In this document: positions 31,726 through 35,717 of the stretch, one piece after another
Layout: the number at the start of each line of letters is the position of its first letter
Numbering within the stretch: position 1 is the first letter of the stretch
NCBI GenBank assembly: GCA_016125225.1
Contig: WGME01000013.1
Span: forward strand, 124,001 to 188,000
DNA from: a bacterium
GTDB lineage: Bacteria; Planctomycetota; Planctomycetia; Planctomycetales; Planctomycetaceae
DNA length: 64,000 bases
Direction of reading: 5' to 3'
Notes under the pieces: model-generated
What the model was told of the DNA's origin: nothing
What the model saw: only the letters and a program-made list of their open reading frames with translations
The model's database searches: none
Translations under genes and position numbers: made by a program

Positions 31726-34095
31726 TCAGCCCGACAGTTGTAGCGGTTTTTCGGGCGGCCAAGCGGAATAAGCCGTCGCTGTTTTTGTGCCGCGTTGCCA
31801 GTTCTGAAAGAGAACTAGAATGAGGACCGCCGTGGCAAAGCAGAGCCCCAACAGGGCGGGCTGATACCGGAGGCCATCGCTGTCGACCAGAAAGAACCAG
31901 TCCCAGAGCCCCCCTTGCGGGACGTGCCCCCCGTACTTATTTCGGACCAGTTCCAGCCCGTTGTAAGCAAAATGGAAGGCGATGCCGGGGAACAGACTGC
32001 GGGTGCGGACGGCAACCAGCCCGAGCACCAAGCCCAGCAGCGAGGCATTCAGCACCTGCTGCGGAATCATGTGAATGATGCCGAACGTCAGGGCGGATAA
32101 GACGATCGCCAGCCCTTCGCGGCCACCCCGTTTGAAGCCGCTGAGCAGGAAACCCCGGAAAGCAATTTCTTCGCAGATGGCCGGTGCCACGGCGAAGGCC
32201 AGTAATGGCATCCACCAACTGAAGTCATCGCGGGCAATGGTTGACAGAACTTCCGTCACGCTTTCGGGCAAGGGGGGGAAGAACCAGCTCATGCGGGCTG
32301 CGAATTCGAGCGACAACGGATGCAGCACGACTGCCAGTACCATTGCCAGGGGAATCGCAAACAAGCCCGGCCATTTCAGGCGGAATGTTTCCCCGACGCT
32401 CGATGTCAGCATCACCCCCATGAACAACGGCGGCGTCGCCACGATGACGAGTTGTTGAATGATGAGCAGTTGCATCATCAACACGCCGCGCTGATCCGGC
32501 GTGGCTCGCTGCAACGGTGTTTGAAAGACTTTCATCGCTGCAAACTGCAGCAGCATGATCAGCACAAAGCAGAACATCGCTTCAGAGAACGACGGGGTCG
32601 CTTCTTTGTCTCGCAGCAGGTGCCGCAGCCACAACCGCACATCAAAGCGTTCGGCTTCTCGGAACAACACGTCTTCGCTGCCGAACTGATCGATGGCCCA
32701 CCATAACGCCAGAATGCTGTAACCGAACGAAGTACACAGCACTGGCAGAATGTAGACCGTCATGGATGACGCCGTTGGCGACAGCAGGCCTTTCAGCAGT
32801 AGCGCCGGTCCCATCACCGGCATCACGCTGTAAAACGGCTGCATTTCGACGGCAGGCGACAGACAGAAAACTGTGAGACCTAATGTCACCATCAGCAACG
32901 GCGTCAAATAATACTGGCCTTCTTTGCTGCTGCGGGCGAAGGTCGCAAAGGCGAGACACAATGCACTGAATAACGCCGACAACGGCACCAGCATCACCAC
33001 CACCCACATCAGCGCAGTGACTGGCGGCAATGCTAAATCGACCATCCGTGACATCGCCCCGGATTCGGCGAGCGAGACCATGTATTTGCCGGTGAAGCCC
33101 AGGCTCGACAGATTGAGAATGGCCGTTGCCGCGCTGAAGAGTTGCACGGTGAGGAACTTACCCAGGACGATCTCGGTCCGTGACGCCGGGCAGATGAGCA
33201 GCGTTTCCATCGTGCCGCGTTCTTTTTCCCCGGCTCCTAAATCGATTGCTGGGTAGAACGCACCCGTGAGCGACATGATCACCAGGAGCGCGGGAAAGAG
33301 TTTGCTCCAGACATTCGCGGCCAGTTCTTCCTGCCGTGCGAGATCAATGGCATCGGCATGGACCGGTTCCGGCAAACTGGCGGGGAGACCCACTTCTTCC
33401 AAGGTCTTCCGCAGAATGGCCCGTTCCCAGTTGTCGAGCACGTGCTGCACGCGGTTGGCCGCAATCAGCGACTTCTCGTCGGCACTGTTCTGCAGCAAAG
33501 CCGGGCGGGGATAGTCGAACGCGGCGGCTTGATCACCGCGCTGCAGAACTTCCGCTTTCATCCGTTCCAGGTTGTTCGCGAACCCTTCGGGGATCACGAT
33601 GAGCACCTGCATTTCGCCATCATTAAATCGTGTGCTCAAGTCGTCTGTGAGCTGTGTCGCCTGCTCTTTCAGACGGGCCAGCGAGGCCACATCGCCTGCC
33701 TGTTGAGCCGTGAATATCTGCGAGGTCAGTACTTCCCGTTGTGCCAGCAGCTCTTTCATGGGTGTCGCAACCGCGAGCAAGGCCTGCTGGCGGGGCGTGT
33801 CGGCATGGCTGTCGGTGATCACTTCCAGTTTGCTGGCATCGGCCGGATTGCGGAACCATTCTTCCGCAAAGTGATGATCGGCAAGTAACGGTGGATCGTC
33901 TGGGAGCGAAGCCGTGCCCAGCACCACCACGGTGCGTGGCTGTTCCGAGAACAGCACCGTCAGTTGCACCATGCCGATGCCCAGCGCGGGATACAGCAGA
34001 ATCGGCAACACGGCGATCATGAACAGCGTCCGGCGATCGCGGAGCTGATCGAGCACTTCCCGGCGGAATATCAGGCCAACGTTACGCCAACGCAT
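31726..34095 (-). CDS. ABC-2 type permease fused to CPBP intramembrane protease
   Basis: 789 residues. The N-terminal two thirds resemble NatB-type exporter permeases: GLIFRREVLDQLRDRRTLFM, a long extracytoplasmic loop, GAGEKERGTMETLLICPASR, and further membrane segments. The C-terminal third is a CPBP/Abi (type II CAAX prenyl endopeptidase-like) domain with EEIAFRGFLLSGF, the second motif FGIIHMIPQQV and the third HFAYNGLELV. Both catalytic glutamates and histidines of the CPBP motifs are present. Its partner ATPase is at 34953-35717. The two genes are separated by the chimeric lipoprotein gene, whose first codons duplicate this gene's 5' end. Substrate unknown; NatAB export Na+. Confidence 0.9.
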   Translation of the reverse strand: MRWRNVGLIFRREVLDQLRDRRTLFMIAVLPILLYPALGIGMVQLTVLFSEQPRTVVVLGTASLPDDPPLLADHHFAEEWFRNPADASKLEVITDSHADTPRQQALLAVATPMKELLAQREVLTSQIFTAQQAGDVASLARLKEQATQLTDDLSTRFNDGEMQVLIVIPEGFANNLERMKAEVLQRGDQAAAFDYPRPALLQNSADEKSLIAANRVQHVLDNWERAILRKTLEEVGLPASLPEPVHADAIDLARQEELAANVWSKLFPALLVIMSLTGAFYPAIDLGAGEKERGTMETLLICPASRTEIVLGKFLTVQLFSAATAILNLSSLGFTGKYMVSLAESGAMSRMVDLALPPVTALMWVVVMLVPLSALFSALCLAFATFARSSKEGQYYLTPLLMVTLGLTVFCLSPAVEMQPFYSVMPVMGPALLLKGLLSPTASSMTVYILPVLCTSFGYSILALWWAIDQFGSEDVLFREAERFDVRLWLRHLLRDKEATPSFSEAMFCFVLIMLLQFAAMKVFQTPLQRATPDQRGVLMMQLLIIQQLVIVATPPLFMGVMLTSSVGETFRLKWPGLFAIPLAMVLAVVLHPLSLEFAARMSWFFPPLPESVTEVLSTIARDDFSWWMPLLAFAVAPAICEEIAFRGFLLSGFKRGGREGLAIVLSALTFGIIHMIPQQVLNASLLGLVLGLVAVRTRSLFPGIAFHFAYNGLELVRNKYGGHVPQGGLWDWFFLVDSDGLRYQPALLGLCFATAVLILVLFQNWQRGTKTATAYSAWPPEKPLQLSG

Positions 34096-34097
34096 GG
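34012..34097. repeat. 86-base direct repeat, copy 1 (5' end of permease gene)
   Basis: This 86-base segment covers the first 28 codons of the permease gene plus a few bases upstream. It recurs in the same orientation at 34803-34888 with a single base difference (G at 34021, A at 34812). The two copies bracket about 705 bases containing the lipoprotein coding region. Confidence 0.95.
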
Positions 34098-34100
34098 AAT

Positions 34101-34892
34101 TTACCGATTGGATGAGTTGGAAACCGGATTAGCTTGATCATCCAATCCTTTGTCGTGTGATTCCCATTCCAGCCATGTCTTTACAGTCATTGCATCTATT
34201 GGTATCGCTTCAAGGAGTTCACTAATGCTAGTCGCACCGCGAACTTGGTCTGCTTGTGACTCGGTCAGAAGAGCATGAACTCCAATTAGATGTTTTCCCG
34301 GCTTCAATTTAGATTCCGAGATGCTACTTGTTCTTGCTAGGAGATCATGTGGTGCATTAACTGCTGCAAAGTACCTAGTGCCAACTTCGCCATCATGGAC
34401 CAAGTTGTCGCGCGAAATTTGCGCATTTACATAAGCAGTGAACTGGTCAGGGTGTGTAAATGCCTCGCCGAAGACCAAGTTCGATGTGAGTACCCCAGCA
34501 GCATTACTGTCCTCCGAAGACCAAAGGGCAATCTCGTCACATATTCCTAACTCTTGATGATCTTGCTCAACGACAGTGTATATTTTCAGTGATTTGATGT
34601 TGTCGGCGGAAAAAATCCATGCCCGTTCCCAGTGTTGCAGGGTTGTGTGCAAAGGTTTGATGTGCAGGTCACGTTGAGCGGCCTCTTGGACAGCAGCTTC
34701 GACTACTTGGCTCTGGACTGTTCTGTCTTCAGAGTTGATTCTTGGCTTTGCAGAGTCAACCACGGATGAATTTTCGTCAGCGCAACCAGACAGTATCAAC
34801 AAGGCGATCATAAACAGCGTCCGGCGATCGCGGAGCTGATCGAGCACTTCCCGGCGGAATATCAGGCCAACGTTACGCCAACGCATGGTCAT
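34101..34892 (-). CDS. chimeric lipoprotein carrying the permease N-terminus
   Basis: 263 residues. The start MTMRWRNVGL continues with the first 28 residues of the neighbouring permease, then changes at the end of the 86-base repeat to LLILSGCADENSS, a lipobox (Cys37), so residues 25-36 act as the hydrophobic stretch of a lipoprotein signal. The mature part is an unrecognised soluble domain (WERAWIFSADNIKSLKIYTV, FTAYVNAQISRDNLVHDGEV). An internal ATG at 34811 would give only nine residues before the lipid Cys. The body is visibly AT-richer than its neighbours. The stop TAA is five bases upstream of the permease ATG. It was probably inserted between natA and the permease gene. Confidence 0.75.
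   Translation of the reverse strand: MTMRWRNVGLIFRREVLDQLRDRRTLFMIALLILSGCADENSSVVDSAKPRINSEDRTVQSQVVEAAVQEAAQRDLHIKPLHTTLQHWERAWIFSADNIKSLKIYTVVEQDHQELGICDEIALWSSEDSNAAGVLTSNLVFGEAFTHPDQFTAYVNAQISRDNLVHDGEVGTRYFAAVNAPHDLLARTSSISESKLKPGKHLIGVHALLTESQADQVRGATSISELLEAIPIDAMTVKTWLEWESHDKGLDDQANPVSNSSNR
34803..34888. repeat. 86-base direct repeat, copy 2 (5' end of chimeric gene)
   Basis: Identical to 34012-34097 except for one base. This copy keeps the original upstream context next to natA, including ATGACCATG, so it is likely the ancestral site of the permease start. The downstream copy begins after the lipoprotein stop and has no obvious ribosome-binding site. Confidence 0.95.
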
Positions 34893-34934
34893 TCAGCGGA
34901 ATTCAGAAGGCGGAAAGCGGAGGGCCAGCCTCTG

Positions 34935-34969
34935 GCTTTCTGCTTTGAGCTTTCAGCTTTTCGCTCCCT
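34935..34969. repeat. imperfect heptad tandem repeat over the natA stop
   Basis: Five consecutive 7-base units on the plus strand (GCTTTCT, GCTTTGA, GCTTTCA, GCTTTTC, GCTCCCT) share GCT at the same phase. The natA stop codon (34953-34955) lies inside, so the repeat encodes the last residues QGAKS and runs into the spacer. It looks like a small slippage-prone tract. Confidence 0.6.
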
Positions 34970-35717
34970 GTAACAGCTCATCATGCCGGTCTATCAATTC
35001 AAAAAACAACGCTTCCATATCGGTCTTGGCGTACTGGTCCTGCAACTCGGCGAGCGACCCGATCGCCAGAATCTGACCCTTGTAGATGATACCGATCCGG
35101 TGGCACAACTTCTCGACTTCACGCATGATGTGGGTCGAATAAATGATACACTTGCCCTGATCGCGTAAGGCCCGGATCTCTTCAACAACGGTCCGGGCCA
35201 CCAGCACATCCAGGCCCGATGTCGGTTCATCGAAGATCAGCACCGGCGGATCGTGGACGATCGTTCGGGCAATCGACACTTTCTGCTTCATGCCGGTCGA
35301 CATCTTCGACCCGAGCACATCACGGATCTCCTGCATGTTCAGCCGATCGAACAGATGGTCGATCCGCGGCTGCAGGATGTTTTCTGGAATGCCGTATAAC
35401 CGACCGAAGTAGGCCACCATTTCATAAGCGGTCATGCGGTCGTAGATGCCAGTATTGTTCGACATGAAGCCGATACGAGACCGGACTTCTTCCGGATGCG
35501 TGGCGACATCGTAACCAGCGACCATCGCCGTGCCGCTGGTGGGGCGTAGCACTGTGGAAAGAATTCGCAGGCAGGTCGTTTTGCCCGCCCCGTTCGGTCC
35601 GAGTAATCCGAAAATTTCGCCCGGTTGAACATGAAAGCTGACGTGGTCGAGGGCCGTAAATCCCCCGTCAAGCCGCAAATCGGCAAACCGCTTCGTCAAC
35701 TGTTCAACATGAATCAT
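34953..35717 (-). CDS. natA: ABC exporter ATP-binding protein (NatA-like)
   Basis: A cytoplasmic ATPase of 254 residues. Walker A is [15 protein letters not shown], the ABC signature region [20 protein letters not shown] and Walker [13 protein letters not shown], followed by [14 protein letters not shown]-type switch ([18 protein letters not shown]). The pattern is typical of NatA, and the downstream ABC-2 permease supports pairing. ATG 35717 is the start because the domain begins [11 protein letters not shown]; a longer frame upstream runs through a TTAGCC repeat. The gene name is by family resemblance; the exported substrate is not shown by sequence. Confidence 0.9.

Follow-up and report, generated by a model that had tools for sequence, protein, structure and literature searches.

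A lipoprotein gene carrying a duplicated permease start within an ABC exporter operon, probably the product of a single illegitimate insertion

In Acinetobacter natural transformation, double or homology-facilitated illegitimate recombination joins foreign DNA at microhomology, and we know of no host duplication of the length described here among such events. The locus analyzed in this work resembles them in that foreign DNA appears to have been joined into the chromosome at microhomology, but it offers no demonstrable anchor homology. Illegitimate recombination at a 9-bp microhomology has been documented to activate transferred genes in bacteria (PMC11111574), and the same source describes work by Li and Bock (2019) in which transferred genes captured a promoter or start when an illegitimate duplication arose in tandem. 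As in that case, a transferred gene lacking expression signals would have gained them here by a microhomology duplication join and no classical homology. Our locus differs in that the start of a host gene stands on either side of a single foreign body; moreover, the capture takes in coding sequence and a signal peptide, at a natural locus and not in an experiment. Long direct repeats around an insert are also known from IS1549 and IS1634, whose insertions produce long and variable target duplications of 8-514 bp (PMC2266710). The insert studied here is likewise flanked at both ends by a direct repeat (92 nt, 98%) but, unlike these elements, has no terminal inverted repeats and no transposase, and consists of a single copy of one coding sequence.

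The operon is encoded on the minus strand of the window (the whole 64,000-nucleotide stretch that was analyzed), in the order natA-like ATPase (34953-35717), chimeric lipoprotein gene (34101-34892) and permease (31726-34095). The first gene of this exporter operon encodes a natA-like ABC ATPase (Pfam ABC_tran, 1.7e-30) of native-like composition (GC 55%, GC3 69%), with 59-85% identity to its relatives. Its ORF reaches 35786 with a GTG start, and the alignment of the relatives begins around residue 24. The last gene encodes an intact ABC-2 permease of 789 aa fused to a CPBP/Rce1-like intramembrane protease (NF041647, 5e-167; PF12698 and PF02517). Its coding region is complete and starts 5 nt after the lipoprotein stop. 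All 59 genomes searched gave a match to the permease, the closest being full length with up to 63% identity, and the permease N-terminus is kept in relatives as MxWRNVxLIFRREVxDQLRDRRTLFM. The spacer on the natA side (34889-34952, minus strand, ..GAATTCCGCTGAATGA) has the same place beside natA that is seen in relatives' empty sites and is probably the original permease leader; the ATGACC start of the chimera falls within it. Within this spacer (34896-34952) are a AAAGCTGAAAGCTCAAAGCAGAAAGCC stretch that is nearly repetitive and a small palindrome, GCCAGAGGCTGGC.

A preliminary description of this locus reported an 86-base direct repeat at 34012-34097 and 34803-34888. The repeat is real, but the figure of 86 results from cutting it at the first mismatch: its full extent is 92 nt (34006-34097 and 34797-34888, both on the minus strand) with 97.8% identity and a spacing of 791. 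Copy 1 contains the native permease start, whose encoded N-terminus is conserved in relatives, while copy 2 is a duplicated permease start that now forms the 5' end of the chimera, with an N-terminus matching positions 1-29 of NF041647 (E 3.5e-6). The repeat begins two bases ahead of the permease ATG, and no third copy was found in the 6.35 Mb genome. Because the permease N-terminus is conserved and the permease was matched in every genome searched, the permease is the source of the repeat and not its derivative. A repeat of 92 nt at about 98% identity is not a chance match, since nothing comparable was seen in the 864 kb sampled, where all other repeats of similar length were tandem, belonged to protein domains or formed one REP-like flanking pair. 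This last pair lies at L093 (10118-10794; G000:C37:10118-10794), where two 95-nt units that are 96% alike and contain palindromes of the form TTAGCCCCCGGTGAGTCACCGGGGGC...GACCGGGGGCTAAGAC flank a 162-aa ORF (MQHVYGVMVTMTTYGTWLRGDARSW...); this ORF matched no Pfam family and looks like a REP-associated transposase (REPtron).

We can hardly credit that the repeat is an artefact of assembly. The draft genome has 42 contigs, but the repeat and the insert lie deep within a 503-kb contig, the insert is found nowhere else in the genome, and reads are usually longer than the 92 nt of the repeat.

The two mismatches between the copies (34011/34802 and 34021/34812) both fall within the 16 nt at the lipobox edge (34797-34812 in copy 2), and the remaining 76 nt (34813-34888) are identical. 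Two randomly placed changes would both land in a 16-nt edge of 92 nt with a chance of about 3%. Given this clustering, the edge was probably part of the newcomer's signal-peptide code or is microhomology, so that only the 76 identical nucleotides can be taken as certainly duplicated. The resemblance of the edge to the permease would come from the fact that both encode a hydrophobic N-terminal helix. It is also possible that the edge is permease sequence that changed later. With this refinement, the proposal that the lipoprotein gene borrowed its start and part of its signal peptide from the permease is supported. Read in gene direction, the edges are CTGTTcATGATCGCCgTGTTG-CCGATTCTG in the permease and CTGTTtATGATCGCCtTGTTG-ATACTGTCTGGTTGC in the lipoprotein gene. 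At the far end, the body finishes with TAA-ATTCC right ahead of the permease ATG, and the natA side has GAATTCCGCTGAATGACC ahead of its ATG. The junctions of the body would lie at ATGATCGCC and at the TAAATTCC end.

Between the repeats lies a body of 699 nt (34098-34796, minus strand) that starts in the lipobox region (ATACTGTCTGGTTGC), ends 3 nt beyond the stop and holds nearly the whole lipoprotein ORF. Its composition is foreign: GC is 47% and GC3 43%, compared with means of 58% and 67% in the reference ORFs, and fewer than 1% of the 529 reference ORFs are as low. The flanks have a GC of 55-60%, in agreement with the earlier remark that the body is AT-richer than its surroundings, and the codon usage comparison proposed at that time gave a score below those of all 529 ORFs. 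The frame of the body is open for 231 codons, which none of 2000 shuffles reproduced, so the body is very probably a real coding sequence.

The body DNA occurs once in the genome, and the body is an orphan among the collections searched. No credible relative was found in about 170 genomes of the family, close relatives included, in sampled genomes of the class and phylum, in plasmids, phages or PDB, or in pattern scans of GTDB and IMG/VR, which reach close relatives only. The chimeric lipoprotein matched no Pfam or PHROG family, and the body has no NCBIfam relative. Weak matches to the body (L029-L032, E 0.003-0.09) were rejected as being short and in unrelated or implausible frames. A single-sequence structure prediction of the mature protein reached a pLDDT of 39 and was set aside.

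The chimeric gene (34101-34892, minus strand) encodes 263 aa. Its translation confirms that the ORF reads through copy 2 of the repeat into the lipobox LLILSGC (L-S-G-C) with the lipobox cysteine at position 37, the N-terminus of the fusion being MTMRWRNVGLIFRREVLDQLRDRRTLFMIALLILSGC. The predicted signal, RDRRT-LFMIALLIL-SGC, combines a positively charged n-region, a hydrophobic h-region (hydropathy 2.3) and the lipobox Cys, the last two being of good quality. The hydrophobic LFMIALLIL followed by L-S-G-C is what is seen in bacterial lipoproteins, the substrates of signal peptidase II; unlike in usual lipoproteins, the n-region is unusually long (around 25 residues) and derived from the permease. 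The cysteine is at position 37, whereas six lipoprotein-like ORFs from this genome have it at positions 18-33. If translation began instead at an internal GTG (codon 16), which is conceivable, the signal would measure 22 residues, as is usual. Only about 0.4% of 10-residue stretches would contain a lipobox-like motif by chance, and the lipobox therefore probably belonged to the donor gene. The chimera may be expressed, exported and lipidated.

We compared the natA-permease junction in relatives, as the preliminary description had proposed. The comparison covered the 91 related loci where both natA and the permease could be placed, some of which represent the same genome from two collections, so that independent genomes number fewer than 91. 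The gap between the two genes has a median of 57 nt, is mostly 0-150 nt and does not exceed 284 nt in 87 of the loci. Neither a lipoprotein gene nor a repeated permease start was found between natA and the permease in any of the 91. This supports the earlier suggestion of a duplication at an insertion site, that is, an insertion with the start duplicated. The closest relatives, which belong to the same genus, share only about 63% identity in the permease, and the genomes behind the reconstructed empty site are thus fairly distant. Of the four larger gaps, one (L110) is a 568-nt noncoding spacer, and the other three (L123, L143 and L173) hold a second natA. In the latter three genomes, the natA-like ATPase gene stands in tandem duplicate ahead of the permease; in L110, a repeat-like element is found in the gap at this same junction, with CCCGAAGCGT(C/T)AGCGAGGG in inverted copies.

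The pattern of repeat, empty sites, foreign body, in-frame join and clustered mismatches is best accounted for as a whole by one event. We consider it likely that a foreign piece of about 0.7 kb was inserted at the natA-permease junction by a single illegitimate insertion, through template switching or end joining. The piece would span the lipoprotein gene from inside its signal-peptide code to just beyond its stop. During repair synthesis, or during end joining at a staggered break, the first 25-28 codons of the permease would have been copied, followed by a switch to the foreign strand at the 9-nt match ATGATCGCC, common to the permease helix and the signal-peptide code of the newcomer. After copying the body, synthesis would have re-entered the permease at its start codon, about 90 nt upstream, which would explain why the start is duplicated. 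Alternatively, a break whose nicks were spaced by about 90 nt may have captured the fragment, and fill-in and joining would have completed the insertion. In either form, the newcomer would have gained a start codon, an upstream region and most of a signal peptide from the permease, and the fusion would have stayed in frame because the join lies within two stretches that encode hydrophobic helices. The 9-nt ATGATCGCC sits in a 16/18 match between the two hydrophobic segments at the lipobox junction, and microhomology at the re-entry side amounts to only CC, or CCATG at best. End joining is available to this bacterium, whose genome encodes a homologue of the bacterial end-joining factor Ku. Two points sit less easily with this reading: for a random fragment, the insert is a neat fit, its ends lying almost exactly at the lipobox and the stop, and no donor sequence with ends matching the junctions was found in the family, class, phylum, GTDB, IMG/VR, plasmid and phage searches.

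The same ATGATCGCC match could also have guided a local conversion between the two gene starts. In that case, the lipoprotein gene would have settled with its own leader, and the permease start would have been copied over it later by template switching or gene conversion. The 5 nt between the lipoprotein stop and the permease start are like those of a settled operon. However, this history needs two events where one is enough, and its intermediate is absent from the relatives examined; we regard it as unlikely. It is quite improbable that the locus is what was left after the permease, or a unit made of body and start, had been duplicated in tandem and most of one copy lost or replaced. Tandem duplication at a 9-bp microhomology that switches on transferred genes is documented (PMC11111574), but here a whole copy of the body or permease would have had to vanish leaving clean ends, and the spacer shows no remnant of either one in a second copy.

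The term target duplication should not be taken to mean transposition, and we favor refining it to illegitimate insertion at microhomology. Long duplications do exist among transposons and the length of the repeat falls within the 8-514 bp of IS1549/IS1634-like elements (PMC2266710), so that a small element with a long and variable target duplication had to be considered. As noted before, there is no transposase or terminal inverted repeat: the best end-to-end inverted match is 6 nt, with 132 of 300 shuffles as good, and the insert, a single genomic copy, matched no transposase in Pfam or PHROG. A search for IS4-type transposases found only two short, fragmentary DDE_Tnp_1 stretches in the genome and none intact. 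The insert is, moreover, essentially one coding sequence fused in frame. With no inverted ends, no intact IS4-type transposase and no second event in the 864 kb sampled, a transposon is most improbable.

The geometry of the locus also equals that of a Campbell-type integration with an 86-92 nt core, in which a cassette or attachment-site element, as a small circle already bearing the permease start, enters by a single crossover. A foreign circle would, however, need to carry this species' permease start beforehand. The insert holds one ORF only, with no integrase match, the window is without tRNA and the core lies at a gene start; no related element was found in the GTDB, IMG/VR, plasmid and phage searches. 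We think it highly doubtful that the insert arose in this way.

Returning to the single illegitimate insertion, it was probably a one-off event: no second insert bracketed by a copied gene start was found in the 864 kb sampled, about one seventh of the genome. We see only a very slim chance that the locus reflects an unrecognized process of gene gain, such as a small mobile cassette that inserts genes behind host starts with an 80-90 nt start duplication, leaving the newcomer expressed and exported in frame and the host gene whole. The locus is a chimeric gene birth of a known kind and not a new system. It is an unusually fresh and readable case of a bacterium possibly gaining a new exported protein, and its 76 identical nucleotides suggest that the event was recent. 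An orphan foreign gene would have been made potentially functional in one step, the start codon and a membrane segment of a host gene being duplicated and the host gene itself left unspoilt. Since simple recombination between the repeats could revert the insert, its persistence in the population would be evidence of its usefulness.
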